A DNA stretch of 64,000 nucleotides from Asterochloris sp. CNOR1 (taxonomy: Eukaryota > Chlorophyta > Trebouxiophyceae > Trebouxiales > Trebouxiaceae), in assembly GCA_963969365.1 (NCBI GenBank), contig OZ017760.1, positions 2,294,001 through 2,358,000 of the forward strand, read 5' to 3'. Each line of letters begins with the position of its first letter. Within the stretch, counting starts at the first letter, position 1. Positions 1 to 64,000 of this stretch are shown one piece after another. The notes below the pieces were generated by a model. It did not search any database and had not been told where the DNA came from. It saw only the letters and a program-made list of their open reading frames with translations. A program made the translations under genes and the position numbers.

Positions 1-3000
1 ATCCTCATCCATGCTGCTCAACATGTACCACGTGCAGCAGGTGCCCTTACTTGGATGCGCACCCTCATCCTGTGTTTGCACATTTGTCACAGCTCAGCTG
101 CACACAAATCCAGTGCCAGCAAGAAGCTGGTTCACAAGGCACGCCTTCACCTGGCCAGGCCACATGCATGCACACACCCAGCCCTAAACCTCGTGCCTAC
201 CTGAATGCATGCCCTCCAAGCCACATGCAGGCACATACCCAGCTTTGGACCTCATGCACACCTGAATGCGTGCCCTCAGCCTGTGCTCTGCCAGCAGCCC
301 CTCCTCCAAGCGCTCCTGCTCTTCCTTCCCCTGATACTGAGCCAGAGCACGCAGGCGAGCCACCAGGAGCCTCTCTGCAGGGGTGCGCCTGCAACAGTGC
401 GCGAAGAGCTGAGCCACAAAGGCGGCAACTGTTCAATTGGAGCCAGAAAGAGGTTATATACTCTTGAGTATGGGCCAGCAGGTTCTCCTCCAGGCCCTCT
501 TGCTCGCAACCCCTTCCTGTTGGGCCAGCCTGCGCATGCAAGCCACCAGAATGCAGGTCTGGCAGACAGCTTGAGCAGCTGAGCCCCACCTTCTGTCCAG
601 CAGCTGCTGCTGCTTGATGTTGGTCAGCCCGCGCTGGATGCAGAAGTCCCGCCGCCGCTCCCGCTCTGTCAGACGTGCGTTGTAGATGTCCATCAGCTTC
701 ATTTTCTCTTCCATCTCCTCCTGCAGCAGGATCATATGACCATATATGCTGTGGTCGTGACACGATTGATGTCTCAACGTAGCCTTCATGATGGTGTGTT
801 CAGGGTGGAGGTGACACTGCAGGATAGCTGCACTGTTGGAACGGCGGCTCTTGTAGTACTAGCATCTTACTGGCCCAGTGGAAACCATAAGCTAGGGCAC
901 AATGACCGACCTTGGAGTCGTCCTCCTTGAACTCCATCTCTGCCACCAGCAGCTCAGCCTCGTTGTCATACTCTGGGTCAAACTCAGCCCGCTTGATGTG
1001 GAACCCGGTCAGCTGCTGAAGCTCTGAGGCAGCCTGCAGGGAGTGAACCTGGACTCAAACAACTTTCTGAGGCCAGTGTGGGAGCTGTGAGCGTGTGGCA
1101 AATTTAGCTGGTGAAGCAATCAAGGAAATCTGCCCGCCTGATATGAATCTCTTTGGGCCTGCAGCTCCGAGCGGCCTTCAGGGGAGCACTGCCTACCCCG
1201 TCCTGCCTCCTGTTACCCAGCCGTGCCTGTCTCAAGCAGAACATCAAAGCCCTCACCTTGACCTCAGGATCTTTACTCTGCTTGCCCTGCACCAGTTTGC
1301 CGCGACCGCTGGCGGCGGTAGTGGCATCTGCAGCCGTCGGCGCCAAGGGCGTGGCTGCAGAGGCCTCTGCCATGGTGTGTATGCGGAGAGCCCCCGCGGC
1401 CTCGTGGGGCAGCCCATTGTCAAGTGGCCCGGCTGGTGCCTTGCTAGAGACCTGACCTGCAGCAGTTGTGAGAAATGTCACAGACAGCTGCTTGGGTGCT
1501 GGCGTGCTGTGAAGTTCACAAAGCCCTGCTGCCTCTTGTGGCAGGCACTGGTCATCCAGCAGCCCCGCATGTGGCTTAGAAGACGCTTGTTCAGCAGCAA
1601 CAGAGGATGGCAGGCGTAGACAGATGCAGGGGTGCTGGCTGAAAAGAATTCTGCAGTGCTGTGGCATCATAGAGCCCCTGCTGCCTCATAGGGCAGGCCA
1701 TTGTCTATGAATTGCCTAGATTGAGAATCTTGATTCCTCTTCCATATAGGCCATGGGGCAGCCCTGAGACATTGCCGCCTGGCAGCGCAAGGACAGTGTA
1801 GCTGCATCGGAGCTTGTGGGTGTGGAGCTGCAAGAGGTCAGCGGAGCAGCTGGCGGCACAGTGTCTGGGCACAGATATGGCAACTGCAGGGCCCCCCTCA
1901 AGCTTGAAGGCCACTCCAGGGAGGTCACAGTCACAAAAGGCAGGCTGGACACTTGCGGTGGGAGCCTCGCTGCGGCAATCACCAACCCCTGCAACAGCTT
2001 GCCGGGTGCAAGCATGGAATCATGGATCCGCCTGCCAATGTGTGCACTCAGAGCCGTTCCAATGAATGGGATCAAGCTGCTTACCTCTGGGTGGGTGGTC
2101 TCCTTGACTCCCTGCAGTCCCCAAAGAGTCCCCAGCACCAGATCCAAGTCTGGCCTCCAGCTCTGCACCTGCATAACAGGCCACAGGAGATGACTGCTGC
2201 ATAATGGCACTTATTGCTGCTTGCTCAGACTCTGGTGAGGAAGTTGCTACCTGTCCAGCCACCAAGAGGGCCAAAAATAGTCACAAACGCCGCAAGCAAG
2301 GATGAAGTGGCCTGCCTTCTGCACCCTTTGTCATTCTCAAATAAGGCACTGATCAGTGCGGGGCTTACCTGCCTGATGCCCCACCAAGGGCTTGGAAAGG
2401 CAGATCACATACAGCACAGGACTGAGCATGCCTGCCTAGTGTGCCCCAAGGCAGGCTTGGGGTCTATCCACAGATGAGCAGAGCCCGGCTTGCCTGCCTG
2501 GTGCGCCACCTTAGCGGGGCGGCTAGGCGTCTTGCGAGGTGCTTTTCCTGGAGGGCTGCCGGGGCGAGCTACTGCTGCACCAGGCGCAGACGCTGCTGGC
2601 TGGCTGTCCAACTGCATGGTCTGTGCACCCTCCATTGTGTCCTGCACAGCACAATAAGCCAAGCCTTTCAGACCAACTGCTGCCTATGTGTAGACAGCCT
2701 TCACCACCGGTGGCTGGCTGAGGTGTGCAAACAGGTGGCCAAGCAGTCCAGGCGCCAAATGCTGATTGAAGCTGGTTTACACTCATGACAGCATTCAGCA
2801 TAAAAGGTGTGGCTGGCTGAGGGTGTCCAACCAGGTGGCCAAGCAGTAGACGCCGACAGCTCATTGCAGCTGGCTGAGGGCATAGTGGCCAGCTGGAAGC
2901 ACAAGGAGGACACAGCGGCATGGTACAAGGTGTTTTTAGGCCTGCATGCATGCTCCCCAGAGGCTCCATGTGCTTTCTCTACAGCATGATGATGCATGGT

Positions 3001-5985
3001 GTGGGGTCTGTAGATTTATCGTGCAACATTGCATGTGTGCAATGCTGGGAGGTGCCCTTCAACAAAATCACAGAACACATGGTTGGCTCTATACAGGGAG
3101 CGTAGGGGAGCACTGGAGGTGCATCTGATACGCTGACTTCCCTGCAGGAATTTTATCACAGCGCAGAACATGTGGAGTCTGTACAGGGAGCGTGAGGGAG
3201 CAGTGGTGGTGCAACTGCTCTGCCAAATGCTATGCAGGGGCACCTTGTGCTACAGGGTCGGCTGGCACTGGTTACCTGAGGTGCTGTGCCACCTGCGGGG
3301 GAGCGGGAGTCGGCAGTTGCCTCTGCAGTGTCTGCTCCCACGGCCGTCAGTGTGCCTGCAAGGACCAGGCATGCGTACACATGTGAGCAGCGCGTGCAGA
3401 GGTGCATGCATACACATTTGCCACCAGCTTGTGGTTGTTTGTGCACCAGCGAAGGCACATCCAGCCGCACCCCCAAGCAGACCAAAGGACCACTGCCTGA
3501 GAGTGGGTGCAGCCAGGCCTTGAGGCAACTATCAGGCAGACTCACTGACTATGGGCAATTTATGTCATGCGCGGCAACAAGCAGGTGTTCTCATGTGCAC
3601 AACAGAATTCAGCAGCGGATCAAGGTCAGCCCTGCAAGCAGGTCCTGGCAGCCACCCCTGTCAGTTTGAAGGCATGCTCACTGGCAACAGCCCAGCATTG
3701 TCCAAGACACATGTAGTCACTAGCCGTGGACGAGGCCAGTCTGGGGCCTTGCCTCACCCCGGCGGCACACACACCCCCCCCCTTTTCCTCTCCCAATGCA
3801 TTCAAATGTCTAGGCGTGCTTGCAGGACCCTGCAATCTCACATACAAGTCCGCTTACTCGCAGTGGGGGACGCCAGAAGGCCCTGGCGCTCCTGCTCCAC
3901 CCGCGCCCTCTGCTGCCGCTCGCGCTGCATCTGGAGGTGGTCCATCCCCGCCATCTCAGGGACGGGGCGGGGCTGGGGGAAGTGAGGGGACCCCACGTAA
4001 ATCTGCAGATAGTGCTCCTGCAAAAGGGGGCACCTCACAGGTGTCAACTGTCCTGCTGCAGGGGCGCTGTGCTACTGGCATCTGGTCAACAGTGTTCCAC
4101 GGCAGGGCAGGTCAGCTAGGGGCTAAGGGCTCAGGGTTATACAGCCAGGGGTCGCCTGGTACAAGCAGGTGAGCTGGCCAATGTTTCCAAATTTTGCCGC
4201 TTTTCCTCTCGCTTTGCAAGTATTCCATCACCCCACTAAGAGACATCCCGGCAATAGCTTTGTCTGCTGAGTGTACAAGCAATGACACACACCTTGCAGA
4301 CCTCCTTGCTCTTGGTGCCCACATGCTCAGCCACTGCGGCCCAGTTGCCCAGCCCGCTCATGTCAATGGCCTCCAGCAGCAGCAGCTCCTCATCAGCCTG
4401 CATCACTTTGCTGGTGGGCACTGAGTTTTGGCTGTCAGTGCAGGCAGCAGCACAGGCCAGCAAAGCTGCCCAGCCAGCAAGGCATGCTCTGCAGAGGCAA
4501 TGAAAGTCAGCAGGCCTGCATGCCCATGACAGAGTGCCAAAACAAGGCGGCATATGTCTGTGCGCCAGCACATGTGGCACAGGCAGACTGCTGTGCATGC
4601 TGCCTGCTGTAGCTGCCCTGCCTCCCAGCGGAGGCTGCCTGGTGACCGACAGCTGTTGCATGTGTTCACACCGCAAGCCAATTCCAAAGACTTGTTGCTC
4701 CAACTTGTTGCTTGTCCCCATACGGAGAGGTTGTCTAGCGCCCTGCAGGCATGCCTGCTCTGGTCAGGGGTGAATGTCAGATGTGCAAAAGGAAGTGCTC
4801 ACCCCCCAGTCTGGGTGGTAGAGAGGGAAGCTGAGGTTGTCCACCACTCTGTAGGCGTGCCCGCTCTTGTGGGGTGTGATCTCAACGCCGACAGCGAAGC
4901 AGTCCAGGCACAGGTCGAAGTCAGGGCACTCTGCACACTTGATGCGCACAGTCGCGCTGATGTCGCGGGCGCAGTAGTTGCAGTGAAACAGGGCCCTGCG
5001 GGTAAGAGGCGATTCAAGCAAACTAGTGAATCAGTGCAGAGGTGGGGCCAGAGCTGTGCTGGTGTGGTGCGCAAGGCCTTCCAGAGAGTGGGACCTGCAG
5101 GATTGTGCAGGCATGTCGGGGAGAATGTCGCAGATACGAGGGGCCAGGGCCCCGCTCGTGTGGGATTGCAGGCGGGTGGACTGGCCACGAAAGCAGGGGT
5201 CAGCATGGGGACTGCAGCAATGCAGGACCAAGCATGCACAAGAGGTTCGAAATGTGCAGAACAGTTCTGCAGGTGTGGCAGGCTGGGTGCTGGATGAGGG
5301 CCCCTGCAGGGAGTGGGGCTTGCACTCTGTTAAATGGCCAATATCCAGGTAGCGCAGTGTGGATGCAGTGGAAGACCTCTCAGGCGCACAACGGACTGCA
5401 GGCGGTGCGATGGTTCTGTTGCAGCTCAGCCACAGGTCAATGCAGCACCAGAGGCATGAATGCTCAAGTCAACTGGGGAAGACTGCTGCCGTCTGCCTCC
5501 AGAGGGCGGGGTGTGCTCATGCAGTTGTGAGCTGAGGCGTGGTGAGCTGCAGGTGCTGGCTTTCTGCCCGATGCGGCCGGCACACAGAGACTGAGGGAAG
5601 AGGCTGCCTTCCAAGAATGCAACACATTGGCCTGGCCACGGCTTTGCACAAGGCCGGTGTCTAGGACGTGCCTTTTGGAAGATGCGCCGCTTTGCCTGCC
5701 CTCTTTGCTGGTGCTGTCAGCGCCACGCTTCCGCTTTTGCCGCCCACTGCCACTGCAGGCAGCATCAGCATGTTCGGCACAAGACTTGGCATGCCACGAA
5801 TATTTTGAGGTGCGTCCTGCAGAGATCTGGGCAGCACACTCTGTCCTTACCTGGGTGCTGCACCAACACTCCCTGCCATCTATGCCAAATTGTATGCACG
5901 GCGCCCCAAGACTTCGGCAGCCTGGTGCTGGCAGCTGCTGCAGCTAACACCTACCCAGAGGTCTGGCGTTCATTGACCCGAGCAT
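1..5985 (-). CDS. ADA2: Transcriptional adaptor ADA2 (SAGA/GCN5 complex), 3' end outside window
   Basis: ADA2 bridges the GCN5 acetyltransferase to activators in nuclear SAGA-type complexes. Exons that join in phase: 5955-5985 (ATG at 5983-5985), 5672-5816, 4803-4995, 4293-4397 and 3858-4017. The third encodes a ZZ zinc finger with CNYC, CAEC and CLDC cysteine pairs followed by HKSGHAYRVVDN. The fourth is a SANT/Myb domain (ADEELLLLEAIDMSGLGNW). The fifth begins EHYLQIYVGSPHFP, as in plant ADA2. Further recognisable exons are a basic linker near 2480-2630 ending RPSRPAK-like, one ending KQSKDPEVK near 1257, FHIKRAEFDPEYDNEAELL at about 920-1037, IYNARLTERERRRDFCIQRG at about 590-730, and a helical exon ending EEGLLAEHRLRARIQ with its donor near 267. 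The SWIRM end lies beyond position 1. Intron 2 uses a GC donor (AG|GCACGT). Middle exon limits are approximate; identity is secure. Confidence 0.9.
139..285. repeat. Reiterated donor junction in ADA2 intron, ~61 bp period
   Basis: On the minus strand the ADA2 exon ends ...GGGCACGCATTCAG|GTGTGC near 265-270. The same junction recurs 61 bp further into the intron as GGGCATGCATTCAGGTAGGC, followed by the same intron bases (tgcatgtggcttgg-like). A third, weaker unit lies at about 139-170. Confidence 0.8.
2340..2510. repeat. Reiterated donor junction in ADA2, ~55-65 bp units
   Basis: Three related units centred near 2360, 2425 and 2485 share a tgcctgcctggtgcgcc-like core. The last contains the donor of the ADA2 linker exon (minus strand CCTGCTAAG|GTGGCG-like). 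The two others lie in the downstream intron. Confidence 0.65.
2700..2890. repeat. Imperfect tandem repeat in ADA2 intron, ~98 bp period
   Basis: The segment beginning gtggctggctgagg near 2709 recurs near 2808, both continuing into an aggtggccaagcagt-type stretch. A third partial unit (cagctggctgaggg) starts near 2867. I see no convincing exon in it. Confidence 0.75.
3060..3215. repeat. Imperfect tandem repeat in ADA2 intron, 90 bp period
   Basis: Two units share atcacag...gaacatg and a tacagggagcg core at 3092-3102 and 3182-3192, exactly 90 bp apart. The similarity extends about 60 bp. It lies in the long intron between the ADA2 SANT/helical part and the linker exon. Confidence 0.8.
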
Positions 5986-6442: not shown

Positions 6443-10551
<4,109 letters not shown>

Positions 10552-29067: not shown

Positions 29068-32000
29068 ATGCGGCACAGCAACATCTACAGCAGGTACCAG
29101 GATGTGGATGAGGATGCCTCAGCCACCCCATCAGCCACTCCCTCTGCCTCTGAGCTTGACATGGGGATGGCAAGTGTGGCATCTGAGCTTACCATGCCCT
29201 CAGAAGAGCAGGATGAGCCACTGAGCGTCAGCTGGGGCCTCCAGAGCAGGAGTCACTCCCGTGGGCACGCAGTGCCGTGGCCTTATGCTCACAGTGCTGC
29301 TACCACCAGGGTGTCAGGCAGCAGCAGGCCAGCAAGCGAGTTGGCCAAGCAGCAACATGAAGTGTCCCTGAGCGGGCCCACTGTACGCAGTGACGCTCAG
29401 AGAGCTGACACTCCGCCGTTCATGCACTGCCTCAGCAGCTGGACAAGGAGCTTCCAGCAGGGCACTTCCCATTCAGCAGAGCGCGCGGCAGAGCCGCAGC
29501 AGCGTGCTGCAGGTTTGGGCAGGCAGAGCTCTGTTGCAGCCAGCGCGACTACGCGAAGCTCAGTAGAGCAGCAGGGCGCTACAGGCGCTGACAGGCAGAG
29601 CAGTGGCGGCATCAGGCCACCTGTGTCTATATTGCAAGTTAGCGCCCCGCCGAGGCAGGGCACCAGCCACACCGACCCAGCTGCTGACCCATGCAGTGCT
29701 GCCTCAGAGGTCAGCAATGCAGACTTAGGCAGTCCGCCCAGCTCCACTGGCCGACCCCAGCCGGCCCCGCTGTCCCCGCTGCAGCAGAAGCGACCGCCGC
29801 GGCTGCAGGCCATCGCTTCTGCTGCTGAGCCCCCTAAGGGGCCCAGCACAAGCTTAGGTGCCACGGGAGATCATGGTACCAGCCTCCTGTCCAGTCGCCA
29901 GCCGAGCTCGGAGTGGCTGGCATTGCCGCTGACGCCGCTGGTGCGCGGCAGAGATGGGGCGCAGTCAGGGGAGCTTGAGGCGCCTGAGTGGGCGGAGACA
30001 CCTTCGCTACCCACACAGAGGCTGCGCCTGGGGTGAGCTGCAGCATGCTGCGTCCTTGGTCTGCACCCACGCTGGGTTCGCAGGAGCATTACCAGCTGGG
30101 CGCAGCTGAGCTGCGTCCACTGAGGCTGCGCTGCGTGGTGGAAGCCTGCGCTGCATGCTTTCCAGCTGGTTGAGAGGTGCACCCGTGCCGACTGAGCCTG
30201 AGTGGGGAAAGGCACCCCTGTTGGCCCCGCAGGGCTGCGCTGCGGGTACACTCACAGCTACCTGGGTGCTTCTGTCTGCGGGCAACGGGATTGCCAGAGC
30301 CATGCCTGCAGCGGCACCTGGGCTGCCTCCACAGAGGCTCTGCCAGCATGCTGATCTTCCTGCTTGACTTGGTGCCAGATATGCAGGCATGCCAGCTGTG
30401 CCTTTTTCAGGGAGGCACGCTTGCAAGGCTGCGCATGGGGATGGGCAGCTAGTTGCAGGGTGCCTGTGTTGCAGGCTGCGAGCAGAGCTGGCAAACGAGA
30501 CACCTGACTGTTAACAAATCACTCGCCACGAATGCAAAGGCTGCTCAGGGGGTGCTCAGTGCTGAAATACCAATTTTCCCACAACAGCAGCAACAGCCGA
30601 CGGCTGTCTTGGCAGCCTGACATGCATACTGCACAAGAAATAGAAAAATAGAAGTCTGTAGGGAGGCAGCAGCAGATACTCAAGCCTGCCCTGCCACATG
30701 CAGAACAGGGCTTGGTGCAGATGCAGTAGTAAGCAAATTATCTCAGCTGCCTGCAGTGTGGCACGTGTCGTAGTGGCCTGCATCACAGGTCAGGTTACCT
30801 CTGGCAGCCAGGTTGAGCTCCACCTTCCACAAACAGTATGGGCCCTCAGTAATAGTGCCACCACTTGCCCCTGCTGGCCTGGATTGCATCCCAGAGAGCT
30901 GACACGTGTCCCACATGCATGTGTGCCACATGCCATGCAGGGAGGCAGCAGCAGCTGCTGATGTGGCCGCTACTCAGGCCCCTTGCCAGGGCCCTTGCCG
31001 CCGCTCATCCAGCAATTCACGTGGTGCCTCAGCCCAGCCATCACCCCGCGGTCGGCCAGAGGTGAGACATACAAGTCACACTGTGCAACTGGTACTGTGG
31101 CCAGGCAAGTCCTCTCCCCAGATTTAAATGGTATCCCGTGAGGTTACTGCAAGAACTTTGCTTTACACTTACTCCCACAGCTCAGACTTTGTGTGCAGGC
31201 CTGTTGCCCACAAAGTTGCCTAGCACAAACTCCCTGGTGTACACTGAGGAGCCGTCCTGGGCTGATATGGGCTGCCTACTCACATGTTGCTTCCTTGCAG
31301 CATGCCACCACACACGAGCAAGAAGGATCTTTTGCCCTTGTAGGTCAGCCCGGAGGGGATCACAGTGGAGCCTGGGCACAGGTGGTCCCGCAGCAGCAGC
31401 CGTCCCCAGCGAGCCTCCAGCAGTGGCGGCGGGGGCGGATTGGGGGCACGCCTGGTGGCTGTGCTGGGCAACTTCCAGGCCACAGCTGTGCACAGCAATG
31501 GGCATGTGCAGCGGGGGAGTCCCAACACATGGACAGGTCAGCGGCGCTGCCCGCTGCTAAGCCGTGCATTGCCGGTTGGCCTTCTCTCAGGTGCATGGCG
31601 GCTGTGCTCGGGTGGCCTGCACCTGTCTGGACGCGCCTGCAGCTGCTTGCCTGCAGCTGGGCACACTTGGAAGCGCTCACTGTGGGGGACTCAGACAGAG
31701 TTGCAGCACTTCCCGCTTTCAACGTGGACTGCCACGTAATCGCCTCTCACAAGCATGGTGGCTGTGCTGGACAGCTTTCAGCTCTCAGCTGGCCACATTG
31801 GCTTGAGATCACTCTATGGCCTCCCACAATGGGCAGCTGAGGCTGGCCAGCCAGCGTCACTGCACTGCATTGAGAGGCTAGGCTGTGTGCTGTTTGTCTG
31901 GGCAACCAGGGTTCTAGCTGGGCTACCCAATCAGAACCACTGCACTGCACTGTCAAGCCACATCGTGAACTATACCTGCTGGGAGCTCCAAAGATGTGGG

Positions 32001-41657: not shown

Positions 41658-44600
41658 TTGCCAAGCCCCAGCAGGCCCGGCAGCATGCTGCTCGATGGCA
41701 GTGTGCTGCCCACATTTGCATGGGAGGAGCAGGGGGCGGAGGCTGCAGCGCTCACGCTGTCCCAGTTCCGCTTCATGGCCGCGTTCTTCCTGTCCCTGCC
41801 GGTGGCATGGCTCTTCCGCTTCGTGCCCACCGTCAGAGGTGAGGGGGCTGCCCACAACTGCGCTGAAGCACCACAGGGGCAGGGGTGCTGCTGCATCTTG
41901 CTGGGTGCCAGAATGGGCTGACTGGGTCACCGATGAGAGTGTATCAGGCAGGAATCCCCATGCACCCCATGCCCACGCTGGAGCGGCAGGGGCACGAGAG
42001 TGCCACCCCTACGCTGTTCCATCTTTGCTTGATTGCTGCAACCATGCTTTTGTCGCTGGTGATTTGTGCGCCCCATCCTGTCAGATGTGAGCTAGGCACT
42101 TGGGCATGCCTGCAGCAGTCATGTATGCATGTTGACCATGGGATAGGCATGCCCGGAGAAGCTGCAGCAGACCATGCATCAGGCATGCTTGGTATCATGC
42201 AGCACGACGCTGCTTCTCATGTGGATAGTGGGGCGGCTCTTCTGTCTTGAATGCGCACCGTGAGAGATCGTCTAGGTGCTCAGGCAGCCTCCAGGGCCTG
42301 GCTGCCTTACTTGTGTGTTCACCGCTAGCAGTGTGCCAGACTGGCTCACTGCGCTTTGCGTCAACACTTGTGGGACCTGCGTACAGTCCAGGCCAGTCTT
42401 GACCATCAAGTTCACGCTGCCAGCTGGCCATGGCTCACTGCGCTTTGGCGATGCTTTGTTGGATTTGCCAGCCTCTGCTAGTCCATGCTGACATTTCAAG
42501 ACTCTGCTAGTCCATGCTGACAATCCACCACTCTGAGGCCAGCCTGACTACCAGGGTTGCGCTGGCAGCAGGCACCATGTCCGCCTCTGTGGGCACCCTC
42601 ACCCCTGGGTTTCTGACATGGGTCCACCCCCTTCCTCTGCATGAGGAGAGCGGCGGCTGCCAGCTCTGGGCGCCGGCTTCCCCTTTCCAGCTTGCAGGGT
42701 TACCTGCAGCCTTGAGGCCACGTCCGCACTCAGGCGCGCTGCCGTGACCACTACTGCAATTTCCAGCGTGCCCTGCAGGCAGGGGCCACCTGTATGCCCA
42801 GGGTGATGACTTTGCCCCGTCAGCTGCTGAGGCTGTGTCTGCAACAACATTCTGCTGTGCCCATTGTGCCAATGCTCACATCTGTCTGTGTGCAGGGCGC
42901 CACCTCTATGCCCTACTCACTGGCTTTGCCCTCATTTACTACCCCTTTGGCAACGGATGCTTCCATGCCTTCATCTCCTCAGGGGCCACCTACCTGATCA
43001 TGTGGCGATTCCGTGACCATGCAGCCACACTGGCCTGGCTGGTGGACTTCATGTATCTCATTGGCTGGTGAGCGCTGCTGTCTGGCTTGGTGCTGCAGTG
43101 ACCTGCCATCTGTTGCAGCATCACCAGGCTCTCAGTGGGCTGCAGCACTTTGTTGACTGGTTGAATCGACTGCGCACGACCCCAGCTGCATGCATCACCC
43201 AGTCTTGCTGCTTGCGGATGTTTTGTTCAGCTCTGCCTTCAGACCTGGTGATGCATGCTCCTCCATGGTGTTGTTGGTGGTTTGTGTGCAAAACTGCACC
43301 AAATAACTGCCCTCGCCTGCCTGTTGACCTGGTTCCCTGGGTGGTGCACTGCCCTGTGGCTGCCACGGAAGACACTGTGTGGCTGGCAGCCATCTAAATC
43401 GTCCTCACCCAGCTGCTGTGGCATGCGGGTTAGCCAGCCAGGGCCTTCCTTGGTGACTTCCAGCAGTTTGTGCATGGCCAGATGGCTGCAGCTGGTCCAG
43501 CAGCTGCCCTAGCATGGCTGGCAGCCCACCCGACACCATGACCCTTTCCTCCTGCAGCCACGTGTCGAGCGCCAGCGGTCAGGCGTGGAAGCAGGGGCAG
43601 ATGGACTTCACAGGTGAGCTGCCCTGCCTTGGTGTTGCATCTCGTCTTTGCTGCAGGGTCAGAAGGTCATGCACCTGCAGATGGCGCTGGCAGCCCTCCA
43701 AAGCCTGCAGCCTCTCAGAGGCACACCCCTGCAGCGTTTTGAAGCCAAAGATACTGTGTGTGTCCAGAAAACCAGCTAGGCCCACATGTACCTCACCCGG
43801 CTGCAATGGTGCAAGAGCAACAGCTGTACCATGTCCAGCAGGAGCCTGAGCGTCTCACTCGTCCCTGCATTTCTTCAACAGATGTGCCCACATGCAGGTG
43901 CCCAGATGGTGCTGACCTTGAAGATCATATCAGCAGCTGCGTGTTACCAGGACGGCGCAAAGCCTGCTGCGGTGGGCACCACAGGCCGGCTCGCCCTTGT
44001 ACTGTCACTGCGGCGCCTGACACACTGCCTACATGACATGGACTCGCTCCAGGATGAGCGCGCAGCTGCCATTATCCCAGCGTGTCCGTAGAAAGCAAAT
44101 CCTGCATGTCAAGCTGCAGCCCCACCAGTTGACCCAGAAGCCGCCGCTATCAACTAGTCACAGCAACCTCTGCCAGCTGGACCTGGGCCAAGGGGCCAGG
44201 AGAAGACTAAGCTGTATCGATGCCAATGCTGCCTCCAACATTCCGGCAGTCGCATCCAGCAGACTCTGCCTGCAGGAGCTGCGTCCCTACCATGAGCCTG
44301 CATCTTTGGCAGTCCTGCATCGCCTCTGCAGACCATCAGTTGAGCAGGCTGTGCCTGCATGACCTGTGGCCCTCAAGTCTTCACCCTAAACCCAGGATTC
44401 TGCCTGCAGGAGCTGCGTCCCTACCAGGAGAGCATGAAGCTGCACCTCATGCCCAGCCTGCTGGAGTTCTTCAGCTACGTCTTTGCCGCTGGCAACCTGC
44501 TGGCAGGCCCCTTCTTTGAATTCAGGGACTACATAGAGTACATTGAGCGCAAGGTGGGCTCCAGTCATAGCAAGCAAGTGTCGTCTGTGCACTTCACTGT

Positions 44601-48684: not shown

Positions 48685-51600
48685 TCAGAAGTAATGCTCC
48701 TTGCCGAAAACAAAATCTACTGAATCCCCATTCTGGTGATACTCCTCCAGCAGGCGCTCTGCCTGGGTGACCCCACTCTGCAGGGCATGAAGTATACAGT
48801 GAGGCTTGCTGGGCCAGCCTTCAGCTGAAGCTTTGACAAAATTCCCCATGAAGGCTGCTGCAGTTGATCGCTCAAGCGTTGCATGCTAAGACTTGACATG
48901 GGCGGCTTCAAAAAACTGCGCCGCAGTCTCTTGACAGATGAGAAATGTCATGCTGGAGGGCAGAATACCCCCACCCCCCAGCTTTTGATTGGTGGAGCTT
49001 CTGAGCACGCAGGAGCTTCGGGTCGGATACGCCATTCCAGCTCAGTGTGCGGACGTCTGCAACCGCCACCAGCAGGCCCCACCAGCATCCTGTGCAGAAA
49101 CGCCTACAGCCCTGTCCACCTGCCCACCTCTGCAATCTCGACCAGCGGCGCCAGGAAGTTCTCCTCGGCCTTGCGCCGCCGCTGCAAGCCCTCCCGCGAC
49201 AGCTGCACCATGCGGATTGCCAGGTCCTGCACTGTGCCTCCACGGAAGGGAGTCTTGAGCGCCAGCCTGGGAACCTGCAGGGCAGAGGAATCAGGATTTG
49301 TGAGGCCAATACAAGAGATTGGGCGCCAGGTTGAGCACCCCGCCTCGCCAGAGAGGAGTCTTCCAAGTGCAAGCCTGGACTGGTCCTGCACGAGGGGCAG
49401 CAGATGGAGATCCTTGAAGGTACGACATGTGCTGGGTCTCCTGACATGGAGTTGGGATCTTGGGTGCTCATCTGGAAACCTGCAGGGCAAGGAAATTTGT
49501 GAGTGTGAGGCCAATTGAGAGGAGTTGCCAGGTCCTGACTCATGTCTCCACAGAATGGGCCTTCTAGCAGCAGCCTGGGCGCGCAGGGGCAGCAAGTGAA
49601 ATGTGTGAGGCCAAGTCAGAGATGGCGCTGATACCCCATGCCCCAATCACTGCTGCCTGGCCTTGCCCCTCTCCACTGGCTGAATCAAACAGGATGATGT
49701 CACCTGAACCACTGCTTTGCTGCATGAGACAGCGCTGCCACAGGTCGGCGACTTGCTCCCCGCCAGTAGCTGAATTTCATCGTCTGACCTGCTGCATTGC
49801 ACATGTGCCCATGCCTGACATCAAGCCTGGCTACAGGCACAGCCCCAGGCACAGCCCCCTTCTGCCTGAGGACGCAATGCACAGCGCGACCAACACCCCA
49901 TGTGCTTCTCGGCCAACACCCAATGTATTTCTCCTGCCTTGCGGTGCAGGCAACAGGTTTTCAGCATAGCACATGGATAACATCTATGCGCCGGGCTTTG
50001 GAATTCCTAAACTTTGCGGCACCTCTGCCGCCGAATATTAATCGAGCTTCTTGCCAAGTGGTTGCCCATGCCAGACCTGAGGGTCAATCTCCTGCTCAGC
50101 TTTGACCTCACCTCTGCCCACAGCTGCTCAGGGCACCCACTCAAGCCAAGCCAGCAGCCTGCTTGCCATTGTAAGACTCCACCAGGCCATGGCCCTGTGC
50201 TCTGCAGCAAGCCGAAGCTCAGAGACACCTGCAGCTGTCTGTGGCGCTCACACACCACTGACGAGCATGTCACAGCCAGCAGGCAGATGGCAGCCCCTTT
50301 CTCAGGAACCGCTTTAAAGCTGTGGCTATAGCCAGCTCAGATCTCTCCCAGCCGCCATGACCCTCCCCAAGTCCCACTGCAGAGTGCTCGCCACAACCCG
50401 TTGCACATGCCAGCCCACAGACAGCACGCTCCCACCCACCAGGCAGCATGCCACAGCCAGCAGGCCAACCTCTGCGCCCCACAAGCAGCCATACCCTCCT
50501 AGACCCTACACCCTCGGGGAGCTCACATCTCTCCGCAGCTGCTCATGGTCCTCCTGCGTCCAGTCGCTGATCAGCTCCAGGGCAGCCGCCTGGCTCTGCT
50601 CGTCATACAGCAGGCCCACCCACAGAGCGCTCAGCGCGCAGATCATGCTCTGAGGGCCCCCATCTGCGCCGCGCATCTCGAGGAAGCGCTTAAGCCGGAT
50701 CTCGGGGAAGATGCAGGTCAGGTGGGTTTCCCAGTCAGACAGGCTGGGTGTGTCTCCTGCACACACATTTGCTGCTTGATGGCCTCTTTGAGCTGAAAGG
50801 GCTTGATGGAGATGAGAGCAGGGACTGTGGCCACCTCAGTCGCTGGGGCTGAGTGCAAGGATGGCTGGTCCGCTGCTGCTCATGCTGATCAGGGCACCAC
50901 TGCAGCGCACCATCGAGACTCTGTGGCGAGCACATGTGAATCATGGCGCAGAGCGCTGACACCATGCCGCTCAGGCTCTCACCTGGTAGCTGCTGCAAAT
51001 TGCCCTCCATGAACTGCCGGAAGTCCTCCCCTGACACGTCGACATACTCTCCACTCCTGAATGAAGGTTGCCAGAAAGTGAAGGCAGGTTCGCTGGCACC
51101 CCTTGTTGGGAAGTTCTGCATCTGACCTACAGTCCAACACAGCGGGACCGCTGCCCTGAGCTGCCCTGAGCTGCCCTGTCAGCCTTCTGGTGCTCGCCAG
51201 CAGCTGCTGTCAGAGGTGACTGGTCTGCAGCCCTGGCTGGACTGGACGCATCCTCCAAACCCTGACAGGCGGGGCAGAAGCAGGCCCCGAAGCTCACAGC
51301 TTGAGCAGAAAGCTGGCGCCAGCTCAAAGTTTCCAAGCATCGAGCAACAGAATCCACATATGCAGTGGTTTGTAAAGGCAACAAGTCCACCCTGAGACGA
51401 GGTTGCTGGTTGCTCGCAAAGTAGCACCCCCTGATGCACCAGCGATTTCTGTGCCTTGTGGTCAATAGTGCTCGCCTCAGCGTTCAAGCCCCACAGGCAG
51501 TAGTGTTGAAGCTCACCTATAGACAAAATACATGGGAACCTGCAGAGCGTAGTCCACGTATCGCTCAAATCCAAAGTCGGGGTCAAATACAAAGGGCAGC

Positions 51601-54600
51601 GTCCCGCAGCGTGCATTGTCTACGTCGGTCCATACGTGGCTGCGCCAGCTGAGGTACCCTGCACAGCGCAACACTGTCGCTGAGATGGGGACGCAGAACT
51701 TTGTCAGGGTTGAAAAGCAGCCCCTGTCTTTGTGTGCACCCTCTGGGGCAGACTGCATGACACATGTCACACGAAGCCCAAAGCGAGACAGGTCAGCAGC
51801 AAATGACTGTGCTAACCAAAGCCTGCTTTGCAAAGAACAGTAGGTGAGGCAACCCAAGCGTATGGCGTGGGAGTATTGGCTCCATATGAATGCGCCAGGT
51901 CGATTCATGACTTGAAGCCAGTAGGGGGCCGCCTACACCAGGCCCAGGTAGCACATGGCCTGACCACAGTTTGTATCAGGTCAAACAGCCACAGCCACAA
52001 AGTGCTCCCCAACAGGCTCCCCCGCCTTCAGCAGGGATTTTGGCATACAGGGCCGTTCAGGCCACCGAACTGAAGCATTGCAAAGACAGTTGATGCTGCT
52101 CACTGGTGGGCTTGCCCTCCTTAAGCGGGGAGTTGGCAAACAGAGTTGTGCAGACGGGCTGGGAAGCTCACTGTGAGCCTGCCCATCCTTTGCGGAAACG
52201 AATGCGTAAGCAACCCAACGGGCGCTCACCAGTGGGCTTGCCCTCCTTAAGTGGGGAGTTGGCAAACAGGGCTGTGCAGACCGGCTGCAGGGCCAGGCCG
52301 ACGCGTGCCTTCTCTATCATGTCCTCCTCACTGCTGAAGTCAATGTTGACCTGCAGGGAGGAACTGGCATCATGTTCATGAGTGTTATGGAGCTGACGTT
52401 TGAAGGATCCAAGCGACTGTGTGAGGTAACTGGCAGGCTGGGGGCAGACGACAACACCTTGTGAGGCTTTAGGAAGGGAGGACTGCGTGATGGGTGCAGT
52501 ACACCATAGCTGGCAGTCTGTGTGGCAGGCAGAGGCTGCAGCTGGTGGGCCTGTGCATGCTCACTGAGATTGAGAAGCTGCTTCTGATGTGTGCGGTGCG
52601 CACCAGACAGCTCGGTGGCATGCATGCGGTCAGTGTGGCCAGCCACTATGGACGAGCACCATGTGCATGGCTGACGCCTGAGTCCATGCTGCAATCAGAG
52701 AGTTGCTGTGGTGCAGGCTTCGTGACCCACATGCAGGTGCAGCACTGCTACCCACTGTTGACTGGCTGACCCCTGGACCTCAAATCACACCATTGCTTTG
52801 CTGCCATCTCTCAGCACATGCAGCAGGCACCAGCAGGGCCTGGCAGCCCACCTGGATGGTGGTGGACCGGAACATCATGTCGTGCCCCATCGTGCCCACT
52901 TTGGGCATATACTCTCGCATGATCCTGCAGGCAGCCGCGCGACGCATCACTGAGCCGGCATATCTACAGCACTGGCCCACCACTTGAGTGCAGTAGCGTT
53001 TGGCCAGGCTCACATGCAGCCATGCCTAAGCATGAGCAGCCCCTGATGAAGGGTGGCATCTGTGAAAGACGTTTAAGGCCAGCAGGATTGTCTAGTGTGC
53101 ATTGAACCCACACAAACGACTGCAGCAGTACTGCTACGCCACCAGCAACATATGTCGCTGCTTTACAGAGGGGAGCCAGGCTCACTTGTAGCGGTACTTG
53201 GGCATGATGGGCACCTCCTCATACTTCCACTTGGGGTCAAAGCCGCAGGTCAGGAATGCCAGGCCCAGCTCCTCTGCGATGGTCTTGACCTACAGGGCAC
53301 CATCAGTGGAGCAGTCAGGTAGCTGCAGGTGGGGTGGCATTGCACAGAGCAAGAGAGGCAGGGCACACCCAGCTCCTTTGTGATTTTAGCCTGCACGTCA
53401 TTGTATGCTGATGCATTTGGGCACTGGGGGTGGGCTGACAGTCACGTTGTAGCAGTAAAGGAGAGGCAGGCCTGGGTCTGCAGTGGTCTTGGTATGCAAG
53501 GCACCAGCAGTGGAACACTCAGGCAGCCACAGGCGGGCAAGGCACTGCTCCCTCTGCAGAGCAAGGCACAGAAGGCGGGCCCTGCTCCTCTGCATCGTCC
53601 TGTACCCCCTACCAGGCAGCAGAGACGCAGAGACTGGCAGAAGCTGACATTGGCCCAATGGTACAGAGCTCGGCACACTGCATAGCACTGTCAACTGCCC
53701 CTGCCAAGCCTCTCCTGATGCGTGGCCGGGCTCGAATAAGGGCTGGAGGAGTGTTGGCGAAGCAGCTGGGATGTCTAGCCTCCACTACTGTGCCCGTGGA
53801 CACACATGCCCTAGAACCTGGCTGGCCTCTGAGCAGGTCTAGTACAGCCAATACAGGGGAAAATCAGCTCGTGCTCCAGAGTCCTGGCCCCACTCCCACG
53901 GCACCCCAATGTCACTGGTGTGCAGGGAGCACCTGCCTCGTAAAGGTGGCTATTGACCTCCGAGCAGGTCTTGTGCAGTGAGTCCAAAGGGGCTCCGCTC
54001 AGCTCAAACTGGCCTCCAGGCTCCAGAGTCACGCTCGCATTCTCGAGGGTGGCTCCAATGATGTTGCCCTTCTCCATGATGGGCTGCCAGCTGAAGCGGC
54101 TGCAGATCTGGTGCAGCAGCTTGCTGATGGCCTCGTGGTCTATCCGGCGGTGGGAGTCCACGAAGTAGCCCAGCTTCTCGTGCTCAGTGCCAAACCTGCG
54201 CAGGAGCGGGGAACAGGGGCCATTCAGAAGCCTGCAACGACCTAGAGGCTCAGAGGGATGTTCAGCTTTCATCACTCAAAGCCTTGATCTGCAGGGCATG
54301 GCAGGCAGAGCTTAACTGCAACAAGCAGGACATTGAAGCACCCTGCCCCGGCACCTCTTGCTTGATCGGCCAGGCCTGCACAGGGAGGTGCTGCGTCTTG
54401 ATTGCCACAGCTGCAGCTTGGCCTGTAACTGTGCTGCATGCACCTGCCTAGGTGCTAAGCCCGATGGCAAGCGCAAAGTGCTGTGCAGGCGACGACATGA
54501 ATAGATGTCATCATGCATGGCGCCTTCCCCAAGTTACCAGGACTGAAATGGCTGCATAGGGAGTGCAACAGAGGCTTTACAATCACTGCAATGAGTTTCA

Positions 54601-55372: not shown

Positions 55373-57465
55373 TCACTTGTTGAGCTTGGGCAGGTACTTG
55401 TACACGATGTCAGTGGCCCAGCCCCGGCTGAACAGGAGGGCAGCCCCCACCACAAGCAGCAGCACCACGCGCTTCTTGGGGGCCCGGTGCCAGGCGTGCT
55501 TGGCCAGGGGCCCACTTAATTGCTCCTGCTGGGCCAGCGTCATGCTGTGGCGGCGCAACAGGGACGCCTCGCGGATGGCTGCAATGATGTCCAGGATGCA
55601 CAGCGCCATGACGGTGGTCAGCACGCTCCAGTAGAAGTAGTAGTCAAACCAGGCAATGGGCAGGGTCAGGATGTATGCGCACACAATCCCCACAGCGGCT
55701 GAGTAGGCTGCCAGGTGCAGCCTGTGCCAGAACTGGGCCTCCACCTGCAGAGTTGTGAGGACGGGATGAGCACGCGCGAGGCGCTGGGGGCTTGAAGCTT
55801 GCCTGTCTTGCAGGGACTCCCTACAGCTGCTGGACAGACTGCCAGGTGACGGCAGTGCAAGAAGTGGACCTTCACCTGCAGCAACAAGAAGAATGCGTTT
55901 GTGCAGGGTGCTGGCAGTGCTGAAAGGGCTGCAGATTGTGCTTTCAGGGCACATGTTTCCCACGGCTGCTGGGCAGCAGGGAATGCCAGACATGGCGCAG
56001 GGACAGGCGGTGCCAGAGTTTAGGCCTCCACCACCTGCAGTAAGTTGAAGACTGTGCATGCGTGCAAGGGGTGCTGGCAGTGCTGAAAGGGCTGCAGATT
56101 GAGCTTGTAGGCCACACGCTCCCCACGGCTGCTGGGCAGCAGGCACTGCCGGACATGGACAGGACAGGCGGTGCCAGAACTGGGACTCCGCCTCTGGAGA
56201 ATCCTGCAGCAGCGCAGAGCAGATGAATGCTTTGTGGCAGCCTTTGAATGAGTTGCATGGCAGCTGAGCTGGTTGCCAGCTGCAGGCAGCCAGACTGAGG
56301 CCTGAATCTGGCTGCCTGCAGCTGGGGTCTGCAGCAGGAGATACATCATTCATGGGGACAGGTGTGCGGAAGGGGGTGTGCAAAAAATGCAGCCAACCTG
56401 GCCTGAGTGATGCAGGAGGTGCCGAAATTGGGTGTCCACCTGCAGCAGCATGAGGCACTGATGCTGCAGAGAAGGGGCTGGAGGGGTGCAGGGTGTGCAT
56501 TATGATGCCTCTCACTGCAGGGAATGGCACCCTGACAAAGATGCAACACTTCCGGTGGAGCTGCCAGCAGCTGCCAGCAGTGCAATCACATGTAAATTCT
56601 GCAGCCGTCTATGCGATATGTCCACCATACCCTGGCCAGTGATGCAGTGCTCACAGGTCATGGTGTGCAGCTAAGCACATTCGGCATGCTGCAAATGGCG
56701 CCAAGTATACCTGCACATCAGTGAGACAGGTTGAGATGCTGTCATGCTGCTGGAATTTGGCCGAATATACAGGCAGCTCTCACAGTGTGGCGCCAGAATC
56801 CTGCAGCCACATGCAGCCAGCTTGACGGCGCTACCCACTTCCCGGCCACAGCGCAGCTGTATGTTGCTGGCCCCGGCCAGGGCCTCGGCCTAGTCAGTGT
56901 TGGAAGGCTGCCCAGGCACAGAGCCTGGTGCTGCGCCAGCCAGCCGCAGCCATGCAATATCGATGCAGTCCACCTCACCCGCGCATCATCTTCACCTGCT
57001 CCGTCAGCATGCACTTCCCTATGCACTGCAGCTCACGCAACCCTGCCCTGGAGGGCTTCCATCTGTGAAGGTCCAGGTGTACCATTTTCTCGCTTGCGCC
57101 TTGTCAGCATCCTACTCCCACCTTGGCAGGAGCCATGCACTGCATCAGCCAGCTGCAGCTGGGCAGATTGACCAGGACTTCATGCAGTCTTTGCGTTCAG
57201 GCAGCAGTTCATCATTCCTGTTCACCTGCGCCTCGTCAGCAAGCTGCTTCTCCTCCAGGGCAGCCAGCCTGATCTCCAGGACCTCAGGCAATGTCAAGTC
57301 ACCCCCAAATGTCACTGGGTGCAGCGCTGAGGGCCGCTGCATGCGCTGCTCGGGCTGCTCTGCTGCACAGCGCACATTCCCCCTGTGACAGGCCCGCAGG
57401 CCTGGGAGCAGAGGCCTACTGCTGATAAGCTGGGCAGGATTGGCTCTGGCCTGCATTGTGTGCAT
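55373..57465 (-). CDS. Predicted plastid membrane protein, two exons, unidentified family
   Basis: Exon 1 (57226-57465) starts MHTMQARANPAQLISSRPLL, a good transit-like leader, and ends in a helical LTLPEVLEIRLAALEEKQLA stretch plus DEAQ. Exon 2 (55373-55744) joins in phase to give DEAQVEAQFWHRLHLAAYSA, two hydrophobic spans (GIVCAYILTLPIAWFDYYFY and SVLTTVMALCILDIIAAI), a basic loop, a third span (RVVLLLVVGAALLFSRGW) and DIVYKYLPKLNK. Total 203 residues. I do not recognise the family. The 1481-bp intron carries an array of acceptor copies, and the frame stays open from 56530 into exon 2, so a different N-terminus by readthrough is formally possible. Confidence 0.65.
55741..56450 (-). repeat. 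Array of about five acceptor-plus-exon-start copies
   Basis: The true exon 2 start, CTGCAG|GTGGAGGCCCAGTTC, is at about 55744. Related units upstream on the minus strand begin near 55880, 56042, 56200 and 56440. They share CTGCAGGTG-like acceptors, TTCTGGCACCGCCTG words and CCAGCAGCCGTGGG ends. Spacing is about 135-240 bp. One frame is open across the whole array (55373-56530). Confidence 0.8.
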
Positions 57466-58203
57466 TGTGGGTCTGCTGCTGGGCGGTTGACCAGCTGGGC
57501 TTTTGACCTGGCCTCTAGGGCTGTGGCCAGCTGGCATCTTGATGTGTACCACACATGTGCTCCAGGCTGAGCGCTTGCTGGGCTGTGGCCAGCAGAAGGC
57601 ATGCCCTAAATAGCCTGCACTGGTAGCATATGAGACTGTCTGAGCACACCAGTGACATTCGGCATGGCGACCTGCTGGATTATCAGTGGCTGTTTCCAGA
57701 TGGGCTTGTGCTCACAACTTCCCAAGCTGCAGGTGCCGATGGTTTCATCCTGCATATGGCACAGCAGGACGCCCTCTGCGTGCTTGTCCAGGTGCAGAGT
57801 GTTGATTATTTGAACATGAACTAGCCTGAATCGAAACAGATGTGAGTTTGAGGCAGCTGCTCAATGACTCAGACTTGACGCAGCAAAGTGTTCAGAGCTG
57901 TTGGGCAAGACAACATGGCTTACCAAGTGTTTGTGGTGTGTCAGGGAGGAGTTTGCTTCAGGAAGCTTGACAATTCAGGACAAGCAACAGAATGTTTCTA
58001 TGCTCAAGTGCACCTTGAGCCACGTGGGCCAGACTGAAAGTGCTCATATATAAGACTGCACAGAGTCAGCTGAGAGAGTGCTGGACATCTGCAAGTCACA
58101 CATTACTTGTGGTTACATGCAATTCCTCAGGCGCCCTAAGCAACAGCATATACATGTACACCCTCATCAACATCAAGCCACAGGCATCATAACTGTTGCA
58201 TGT
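57466..58203. other. Intergenic stretch, nothing recognised
   Basis: I see no domain, RNA gene or repeat worth naming here. It should include the 5' region of the membrane-protein gene and the 3' UTR of F-box/LRR copy B. Confidence 0.4.
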
Positions 58204-59657: not shown

Positions 59658-59699
59658 GCTCATGATATGGTAGTGACCTGCAACATTGAGCGCAGTCTG

Positions 59700-60960: not shown

Positions 60961-61554
60961 TGTCCCTGTGGAGACAGCACATTCGTGCTGGCCAGCACAC
61001 TCAGCATGCAAAGAGCTCCCCAGGCACCAATGACAGGCGACCAGGGTGCGCACAGCAGGTCAGATGCGGGCGACAGGCAGGCCTGTGCACAGCTGCCCAG
61101 CATTGCAAGCAACGCTCTTCTGCGGGCCCTGCAAGGTCCCTACGCGTTGTGCAAGGTGCTGTGCTCATCCGCGGCCCCAACTGCAATAGCTGCTCACCCC
61201 GTCCATCAACCAAAGTGGGCAGCAGGTGATCTAGCCAGAGCAGAACATAAGCCCTTGCTGCTGTCTGCCGACGCCCCCTTCTGATGCTGCTCCGCTTGTT
61301 GAGCAGCTTGCTGACGCAAGCTGAGGTCACAAGTGCTATGCTGAAGTTGGAAGTGCTGGCGCACACTAAGGAGTTGACTCCATTGTAAAAAGGCTCCAAT
61401 ACATGAAAATCCTACCTGAAAGCTGCCTGGCCTCACAGCATGCCCCTTTAGGTGCTGCTGAAAAGGTTGCCTGTCAAGCAAGAGGTTGCCTGCCAGATGC
61501 GCTCCATGTGGCGCAAGTCAAAAAACAGTCGTTGACCGATCTGAAGCCCAGCGA
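60961..61554. other. Gap before ORC4, no supported gene
   Basis: Open frames exist on both strands but none shows a recognisable domain. It should hold the ORC4 promoter. Confidence 0.35.
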
Positions 61555-61566
61555 ATGACAGCCAGG

Positions 61567-64000
61567 ATGCCTCCCAGGACGAGCACCAGATGCAAAAAGC
61601 CCCCAATTAGGTTTGTGGAGGTGGACAGCTCTGAGGAGGGAAGCCCCACCAAGAAGCAGAGGCTCACTCAGCCAAGTCGTGACCTGCACTGCACAGCTGA
61701 GAGCGAGGATGGCTCTCTGGAGTATGAGACAGTGATATCGCTGAATGGCAGCTTAGGTGACAGCAGCGAAGCAGAGGATGAGCAGGAGTCTCCAGCAGGG
61801 ACCCAGCTGCAGGCAAGCCTGTGCAGCACTCCCTCAACTACATCTGTGCGGGGGCATCTGGCAGAGTCTTCAATCTGCACCTGGTCACACATTCCTCTGC
61901 CTGAGCAGAATTGTTCTGCATTGAGCACAGGTTCGACAGGCAGTGTCCAGGCGCAGATATCATTGCTTGGCACAGAGCATCAAGAACAAGCTGCACTGCG
62001 CTGCCTGCTATGCCTTGCAGGGTTGCAGGAGGTCTGCGCAGCGTCCACTGGTGTTTCCAGGGGTTGGACACGGCAACGGAACCTCACAGTCATGTGCAGG
62101 TGATGCTGCTGCTTGCCCAAATTACCTCGTGTGGGTGCCATGGTGGTGGGGCAGCTGAACTTGGCAAGCTTGTGCAACCTGGTCCATGTTTGCATAGAGA
62201 CAGCAAACTCAGGCTTCAGGTGGCCAGTCATCACGCCGCAATGCATCTTGATGGCTCAGCCCACGCCTTGGTCGTCTCCCAGCTTACACAGGGAAGCTTC
62301 CATCAGCACTAACCATAGTGCCTGAAGCCCCCTTTGGTGCACAGGCAAGCCTGCAGGCAGGCTGCTTTCGGAGGCGTGCTAGGCCCAGATGGCTGCCCCA
62401 AAGGCACTGCACTGCCACAGGTCAGGCCTGCGCCGCACACGCTCCGACTGAGCAGTGGTTATGCGCTACTGACAGCGCCCCTCACAAATCTGCCACCAGC
62501 CCCAGATGGGCACTTCTTGCCAGACCATGGCCTGGCAAACAGCACCCTAACACTGCAAACCCCCTGAGGACTGCCCTGCTTGCCCTTCACAGGTCTGTCG
62601 CCACAAGCCATAAGCCTCAGCTGGGCACATTTTGCCAGACCATGGCTGGGGAGAGTCAAATACCAAAGCACCTCAGCAGAGTGTCCTACTTGCCCCTCAC
62701 ATATCTGCTGCCACACGCCACCAGCCCCAGCTGGCCATGGAAGGCAGGCTTGGGGCTTCAGTCATTTCTGTGCTATGCAGGTGGCTCTGGCCGCCGCCAC
62801 CAGCATCAGCCAGATGATACATCCGACCTTGGCCAGGAGGCAGCCTCAGCTGAGCACCCTCAGGATGACACTGGAACAGGCGACTCCGGGCGGCCAGGGC
62901 ATGGGGCTCATGCTCGCTCACAGGTGCGCCATCTGGGCCCAGCAGGGACTTGCTTCCAGCATGAAGGTGAGCCAGGACAGGTGGCCCACCCATGCACAGG
63001 TCATAAGCTTTCCTACATGGCCTCTGCCTCTGTTTACCTGCATCTGCATCAGCAGTCACTTGGCAGCTGCTGGTTGAAGGCATCCCTGCTATAATAGCTT
63101 CAGCATTGAGAACACTTGTGGTTTATATTCTGCCGGCAAGCAAGCATGCAGTGTTGCGCAAGAAGACATGCAAGAAGGCGCACAGGCACTGTCAGGGCTA
63201 GCGTGGCAGCAGCTTGCAGGCTGGCCACCATGGCTCCCAGGAGGTGCACCTGTGTGAGTTTGCCTGAACCCTAAACCCCGGCAGGGGGGCTGCTGCACGC
63301 TCTGGTGGGCCCCAGTGTCGGCCTTGGACAGCGCACAGGTGTGGGCCCAGCAGGGACCGACCCCAGGCGTGCTTCCAAACTGTCATGGGTGGCCAGCCAG
63401 CAGGTTGCAGGGGAGTCCTAGCTCTGGGCAGTGCAGCAGCAGCAGGATGGCCCATCAGGGTTTACAGGAATGCACAGCTGTCAGCTTGTCAGGCAGGCAG
63501 GGTCCTGCACAGGACCTGCTGCCGCATTGCTGTGTGTGCTGTCAGCCCATGCTGGTCTCCGAAACACAAGCTCATGGCCCCTGCCAATGCAGGCCCCGCT
63601 GGACCCCCACAGCTTCATCACGCAGCGCCTGATAAACCCCTGTAGCGCCGAGGCGGCCAGCATGCGGCTCCGGCCACAGCTGCAGATGGCAGCCCAGTCC
63701 CTGCTAGCCATGCTCAGCAAGACAGCCACCACCCCTGGGGACAACAGCTCCACGCTTCTGATAGGGCAGAGGGGTGTGGGAAAGACGCTGGTGAGCCATG
63801 GTGTCTGCTGCTGTCTTGGGTCAGCAGTGGTCGAGCGTGACTGTCAGTCAACATATGGCAGAGAGCATGGCATTCTATGCGCCCCACACTGCATGAAACG
63901 CCATGCTGACCGCCAGCTCTTGCGGGGCACATGGCGTGGGCAGGACGCTGGTCAGCACTGCTCTTTCCTGCTGCCCTCTGAGACTTTTTGCTCACAGGCA
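61567..64000 (+). CDS. ORC4: Origin recognition complex subunit 4 (ORC4), 5' part
   Basis: ORC4 is an AAA+ subunit of the replication-origin recognition complex. The best-supported exon is 63593-63790: LDPHSFITQRLINPCSAEAA, then LQMAAQSLLAMLSKTATTP, then NSSTLLIGQRGVGKTL with Walker A GQRGVGKT. This is the start of the ORC4 ATPase domain. The preceding exon 62781-62923 (acidic, HQHQPDDTSDLGQEAASAEH) joins in phase. The first exon, from ATG 61567 (or 61555), encodes basic then acidic sequence (RFVEVDSSEEGSPTKKQRL, nuclear-localisation-like). To match the phase it would have to end at 61756 (TTAG|GTGACA), which is a weak donor. The rest of the AAA+ and winged-helix parts lie beyond the window. 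Confidence 0.75.
62480..62745 (+). repeat. Three-unit tandem repeat in ORC4 intron, ~112 bp
   Basis: Units begin at about 62484, 62588 and 62695 with c(t/c)(t/c)cacaaatctgccaccag-like starts. They continue through agctgggcac and tttgccagaccatgg(c). The third unit is shortened and ends near the acceptor-side of the exon at 62781. Confidence 0.8.
63745..63960 (+). repeat. Duplicated Walker A exon end and donor in ORC4
   Basis: agctccacgcttctgatagg...gtgtgggaaagacgctg|gtgagc (63747-63796) recurs at about 63915-63958 as agctcttgcggggcacatgg...cgtgggcaggacgctggtcagc. The offset is about 165 bp. The decoy donor is GTCAGC. Confidence 0.8.

Follow-up and report, generated by a model that had tools for sequence, protein, structure and literature searches.

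Genes and repeated exon edges at the locus

The window analyzed here is a 64-kb stretch of Asterochloris sp. CNOR1 DNA (C15 2294001-2358000) in which introns contain imperfect direct copies of the edges of their own flanking exons. A sequence-only reading of this DNA had described such copies in seven genes. Pfam matches among the gene models of the window are to ADA2, a kinase, PsaN, LSM, XK-related, MBOAT and GSH1 (GCS2). Exon edges were taken from the models of a self-trained ab initio gene finder, run with opposite-strand barriers and without RNA evidence on 264 kb, consisting of the window and a 200-kb comparison sample of contig C1 from the same genome; the genome that was searched comprises 56.4 Mb in 21 contigs. 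In all, 51 introns were modelled in the window and 309 on C1, with a median length of about 310 bp, and 237 of these (33 in the window, 204 on C1) have coding support on both sides; a stricter cut leaves 227. The GC content is 58% on C1 and 52-60% along the window. The repeated exon edges in the window are as follows.

52224..52287, minus: 3' end of a GSH1 (GCS2) exon with its donor, the source of the best copy in the window (Pfam; alignment to 9ufc_A)
52098..52161, minus: intronic copy of 52224..52287, 58 of 64 bases identical, offset 126; a weaker further match lies at 52004-52063
49217..49326, minus: GSH1 acceptor region; its intron holds a gapped copy further upstream, at 49525-49628
50520..50554, minus: GSH1 donor region, with an intron copy at 50334-50366; the weakest row in the window, score 34
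53273..53333, minus: GSH1 acceptor region, with a copy at 53477-53537, 77% identical
8116..8226, plus: 3' end of a kinase exon and its donor, copied at 8290-8398, with a third, partial match at 8491-8532
10277..10436, plus: end of the last modelled kinase exon, AG|GTGAG, matched twice further downstream, at offsets of 61 and 122
155..277, minus: ADA2 61-bp tandem pair, 82%, with units 155-216 and 216-277, the second spanning the donor of modelled exon 262-388
4833..4876, minus: ADA2 exon stretch with an intron copy at 4727-4772, splice site not included
31447..31494, plus: donor region of the XK-related gene model, with a copy at 31750-31797, 79%; the exon edge is that of the model only
44262..44430, plus: MBOAT acceptor region 44396-44430 with an upstream copy at 44262-44296, 33 of 35 bases identical; from the raw repeat scan
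55687..55881, minus: gene at 55-57 kb, 55687-55750 and its copy 55818-55881, 78% identical

The alignment of the GSH1 protein to the solved glutamate-cysteine ligase 9ufc_A runs gapless over the modelled junction (donor 52230/52229), which argues that the first donor is real and that the copy 126 bp downstream is a spare. This is probably the pair that had been described as 57 of 63 bases identical. The kinase gene model ends at 10277..10436, where the donor was read by eye, and in the 55-57 kb gene 55687-55750 comprises, by the model, the 5' end of an exon and six intron bases. The junction-spanning pairs in ADA2 (155-216/216-277) and MBOAT come from the raw repeat scan. Not every copy takes in the splice site, as three of the nine rows in the window (two in ADA2, one in MBOAT) consist of exon sequence only, and the offsets extend from 61 to about 310 bp, a wider range than the 60-200 bp first given. 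Repeats are present in six of the seven genes originally named, among which Pfam confirms ADA2, the kinase, the XK-related gene, MBOAT and GSH1. The remaining one, ORC4, was not identified; neither a six-frame Pfam scan nor a PDB search of two frames found it in 60801-64000.

The gene finder made errors, in that one GSH1 donor appears to have been placed 21 bp off and some small exons may be false. In the GSH1 stretch 53936-53957 (minus strand) the true donor of the intron appears to be a GC donor, GAG|GCAGGT, at about 53936. Extension of the modelled exon by 21 bp adds seven residues, which can be aligned with the plant enzyme, and these were left out of the model apparently because the finder disallowed GC donors. 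At L013:4030-4250 the finder modelled an additional exon of 44 bp from a repeat of a neighbouring exon edge, which may be a case of a decoy misleading the annotation.

Introns resemble their own exon edges

Exon bases only were compared with the adjacent intron for the 237 supported introns (up to 474 junctions, edges with fewer than 18 exon bases being skipped), which kept the intron side of the splice consensus from adding to the score. At a score of at least 28 there were 35 own-edge matches, as against 2, 2 and 1 in three shuffled pairings. The corresponding numbers were 31 as against 5, 1 and 0 at a score of at least 30, and 20 as against 1, 1 and 0 at 34 or more; at scores of at least 38 and at least 44 there were 15 and 6 own-edge matches, with 0, 0 and 0 in the shuffled pairings at both. 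Imperfect direct copies of the flanking exon edge are present in introns more often than chance would give. The observation made in the sequence-only reading is borne out by this comparison, since similarity to an intron's own junction exceeds that obtained with shuffled partners.

With queries that combined exon and intron sequence, 33 matches (20 donor, 13 acceptor) were found in 30 of the 227 introns, and 9 of these 33 rows lie in the window. Copies of an exon edge are a minority feature, present in about one in eight well-supported introns. A raw repeat scan, not limited to introns, paired a junction copy with an intron partner in 39 of 143 events and with an exon or junction partner in 2 of 143. 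This accords with the direction that had been ascribed to the copies, downstream of the true donor and upstream of the true acceptor, but the junction search covered the intron interior only and the direction is therefore partly built in.

Local direct repeats are found independently of annotation

When the window was compared with itself, repeats of at least 35 bits that lay less than 500 bp apart were all direct (24 direct, 0 inverted), whereas of those more than 500 bp apart 2 were direct and 11 inverted. A scan of every offset, carried out on the window and the 200 kb of C1, showed that the excess of direct repeats is confined to offsets of about 20-600 bp and falls to background by about 1 kb. 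Order-3 Markov sequence contained almost no such repeats. Because the excess is present in the window and on C1 alike, the underlying phenomenon is not special to this locus. The window is about 2-3 times as dense in repeats as C1 at offsets of 100-300 bp, and no denser at 20-50 bp. In a tandem duplication preserved over its whole unit, aligned length and offset would be about equal; over 73 alignments their ratio runs from less than 0.2 to more than 1 (at least 0.6 in 25, less than 0.2 in 16). The share of bases covered by local direct repeats on C1 is 3.8% in introns, 3.2% in exons and 2.9% in intergenic DNA. The idea of a general process, put forward earlier, is correct to the extent that local repeats extend beyond the window, but edge copies are restricted to the minority of introns noted above and the repeats are not confined to junctions or even to introns. 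Nor are the individual units dispersed: three units from the window were searched against the genome (56 Mb) and each matched its own locus only, in a search that skips very common words. Here, too, the outcome is in line with the original proposal.

Two further tandem pairs in the window are near-complete:

55873..56178, no strand assigned: near-complete tandem pair, 83%, just upstream of the pair in the 55-57 kb gene, with no other match in the genome
26652..27086, no strand assigned: near-complete tandem pair outside any gene model

Between 12801 and 29000, where the gene models left stretches empty, Pfam recognized Lipid_desat on the minus strand and GO-like_E_set on the plus strand, so that some of the window repeats classed as intergenic may be genic. 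In the XK-related gene model, 66-bp repeats occur within a long modelled exon (32521-32736), and a gene model at L021:1785-4500 contains several exon-like repeats, part exonic and part intronic. The segments 38107-40634 and 58277-60813 form an inverted pair of related 2.5-kb sequences, 73% identical. Within these paralogues there are repeats, offset by 408 and 418 bp, that show no simple line-up between the members, and no Pfam match was obtained in the six frames scanned. A near-complete kinase domain lies in one 713-codon open frame at L001 (G000:C19:10167-10916), unlike the rest of the kinase matches, most of which are single exons.

The copies appear to be decaying

Mismatches in the exon-derived copies fall on all three codon positions (78, 66 and 102), which argues that a copy is not kept as protein. 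The third-position share, 102 of 246 or 41%, is below the 60% that we assumed for coding constraint (P=3e-9). Among mapped copies, the donor site scored below the true site in 12 of 16, equal to it in 2 and above it in 2, and the acceptor site scored below in 10 of 12, equal in 1 and above in 1. GT is intact in 12 of the 16 donor copies, according to a list read by eye, and the offset is a multiple of three in 4 of 16 donor and 4 of 12 acceptor copies. From their sequence, the copies look dead, and they are probably not spliced.

Ten donor matches extend to the junction; in these, the first six intron bases are 70-88% identical without gaps and those further in 32-47%. This pattern fits a working splice site under selection beside a free intron. 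For six acceptor matches, which do not display this pattern, the corresponding values are 42-50% over the fifteen nearest intron bases and 22-28% beyond. Some junction matches reach further into the intron once gaps are allowed. The copies that we found lie inside introns and are not placed one at each intron end.

Intron length and the age of the repeats

Introns with a junction copy have a median length of 520.5 bp (n=30) and those without one of 288 bp (n=197; p=8e-6). When one repeat offset is subtracted from each copy-bearing intron the median becomes 293 bp (p=0.6). Since longer introns also give copies more room, this difference is consistent with growth but does not prove it.

Of the 121 ungapped local repeats, each 30 bp or longer, from the window and C1, many are 70-90% identical, 5 reach 90% and none reaches 95%. 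Local gapped alignment of the 143 events gave 9 at 95% or more, one of them among the 73 that score at least 40 and the rest short matches. In simulations with births at all ages, 10-12% of the detected segments, of any length, were at least 95% identical, and the probability of 0 in 121 given an expectation of 10% is about 3e-6 if the repeats are independent. The sample therefore does not support the description of the process as ongoing, unless young copies were collapsed in the assembly. Decay driven by repeat-induced mutation or methylation was considered as a cause of the missing young copies and found no clear support (841 transitions, 168 of them in CpG, and 930 transversions).

General duplication or a preference for junctions

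We believe it probable that an old and general process of local duplication, which lengthened introns, produced the copies, rather than a process special to splice sites. This reading is favored because the repeats are local and direct and occur outside junctions, because introns match their own edges better than shuffled ones, because copy-bearing introns are longer and because the copies are mutated at all codon positions. According to it, direct duplications of short stretches close by (at offsets of about 30-600 bp, many of them tandem or near-tandem) would arise throughout the genome regardless of gene structure, the birth step presumably being a tandem duplication such as might result from staggered-break repair or slippage. 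Those within exons would largely be removed by selection and those within introns and between genes retained. A duplication spanning an exon edge would be retained when the outermost splice site stays in use, with the second edge left as a spare inside the intron. With the exon held by selection and the spare copy free to decay, the exon part would remain recognizable longest, and each such event would lengthen its intron. The earlier suggestion of intron growth by duplication is thus supported as lengthening by local, sometimes junction-spanning, events. A junction-specific process is not, because repeat coverage on C1 is similar in introns, exons and intergenic DNA and because random duplication with selection on coding sequence already yields junction copies.

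These expectations were derived from simulations of random tandem duplication on the C1 layout only, with the observed offsets as unit lengths and with rejection of duplications that break the coding sequence. For each noncoding locus, the version with splice-site constraint, in which change in exons and splice sites was slowed, gave 0.40-0.53 junction loci; for junction-or-exon loci the figure was 0.56-1.13. Several observations weigh against purely general duplication. The observed junction loci per noncoding locus were 22/23 on C1 and 10/17 in the window (one-sided p 0.003-0.05), and the inclusion of exon-to-intron loci raised them to 31/23 and 20/17 (p 0.0001-0.32). Counted as events they were 29/34 and 10/24, compared with 0.28-0.35 simulated, the gap being wider on C1. 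Simulation without the splice-site constraint produced fewer still, 0.28-0.38 junction loci per noncoding locus, and the first version, likewise without it, gave about 9-11 junction events, the observed number being 33. When the annotation was rotated, 33 junction pairs compared with 10.9 expected on C1 and 12 with 4.5 in the window; exon-exon pairs were not depleted in the window (2 and 1.3), but on C1 they were fewer than expected (3 and 7.7), which speaks for the general reading. The rotation null ignores selection and the geometry of the duplicated units, and was set aside as the main test because it places repeats in positions from which selection would clear them. After masking of the exons, intron-only repeats touched the donor end above expectation in 8 of 8 settings (p 0.006-0.10; for example, 13 compared with 6.4). 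In the six acceptor-side matches described above the splice-site bases (42-50%) are kept no better than the rest. Some copies, 52098-52161 among them, are highly identical and yet short relative to their offset, a combination not predicted by plain tandem duplication. Finally, a constant process does not explain the absence of young copies. As a whole, junction copies are in about 1- to 3-fold excess over the simulations, the factor varying with the settings and the manner of counting.

This excess, together with the donor-end excess in masked sequence, is what would be seen if splice junctions, and donors above all, were preferred sites of duplication, perhaps through transcription- or splicing-linked breaks, with introns growing chiefly from their ends. 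The excess shrinks with settings, however, with p reaching 0.32 once exon-to-intron loci are counted, and repeat density on C1 is about the same in intergenic DNA. Moreover, at the acceptor end no excess was seen in any of the eight masked settings (lowest p 0.10). Duplications spanning a junction would add to both intron ends. Because the size of the excess depends on settings a junction preference is unproven; a donor preference for duplication is possible, and the broader proposal strikes us as unlikely. Another version holds that duplication or retention was biased to junctions, donors above all, in a past episode that has ended, so that a single burst extended the introns of this lineage from their own edges, of which they still carry a fossil record. 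We have no better explanation for the missing young copies than a past episode, but give the biased burst itself only an outside chance.

It is quite improbable that the copies are alternative exons or splice sites maintained for a function. Some do keep a strong site, as the four donor copies that equal or exceed the true donor and the twelve with an intact GT attest, but most donor and acceptor copies score below the true site, few offsets are divisible by three, and the spread of mismatches over the codon shows no sign of coding selection. That the similarities are an artefact of chance, shared splice consensus or faulty gene models is slightly less credible again; the edges are ab initio, with the GSH1 donor and the doubtful small exons as warnings, but scoring exons alone beats the shuffled pairings, the direct-only and distance-limited excess owes nothing to annotation, and homology supports the GSH1 junction. 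The occurrence of copies in many unrelated genes might recall introner-like or transposed elements that carry splice sites, but each copy resembles the adjacent exon and not other exons and the three units searched match nowhere else in 56 Mb, in the search that skips very common words, so that such an origin is extremely improbable.

Relation to known systems and significance

General local duplication has precedents. In tandem-duplication intron gain (ATP2A1 and potato RdRp; PMC3443670, PMC4974935) a local direct duplication likewise places a second splice-site copy nearby, but the introns of the alga carry spare edges rather than demonstrated new introns. Closer to the kind seen here is an 83-bp tandem duplication inside a potato intron that, in the passages cited, left the exon structure unchanged (PMC3443670/PMC4974935). 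Daphnia introns, as described in the relevant passages of PMC4202315, also contain internal direct repeats, some of them common to the adjacent exon, and a passive trend to greater length is proposed for them. There the repeats are read as products of staggered double-strand-break repair, are commonest in new introns (55/90 compared with 100/617 established ones) and measure 4-12 bp at the exon edge, whereas ours are tens of base pairs long and diverged. A catalogue of 20 eukaryotes (PMC12343006) lists boundary-crossing and intronic exon duplications, including decayed ones as here; it differs in being a catalogue of 20 genomes, and its cited passages give no analysis of offset or age. Duplications by fill-in at double-strand breaks are also direct and local, although the cited account (PMC8355091) concerns mouse and human cells and short insertions of less than 100 bp. 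By analogy, the birth step could be break repair of this kind. Tandem duplication as a source of introns, intronic direct repeats and partial or boundary-crossing exon duplications are therefore already in print, to judge from these passages (PMC3443670, PMC4974935, PMC4202315, PMC12343006), and the sequence-only reading went too far in regarding its observation as not previously described, given the related duplications in PMC12343006 and PMC4202315.

The present analysis contributes a count from one alga-like genome, with matched nulls, and the finding that the young class is missing. The absence of young copies poses a question of timing, and in this genome gene finders meet decoy exon edges. 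The copies provide a countable record of how introns may lengthen, the extra length being about one repeat offset.

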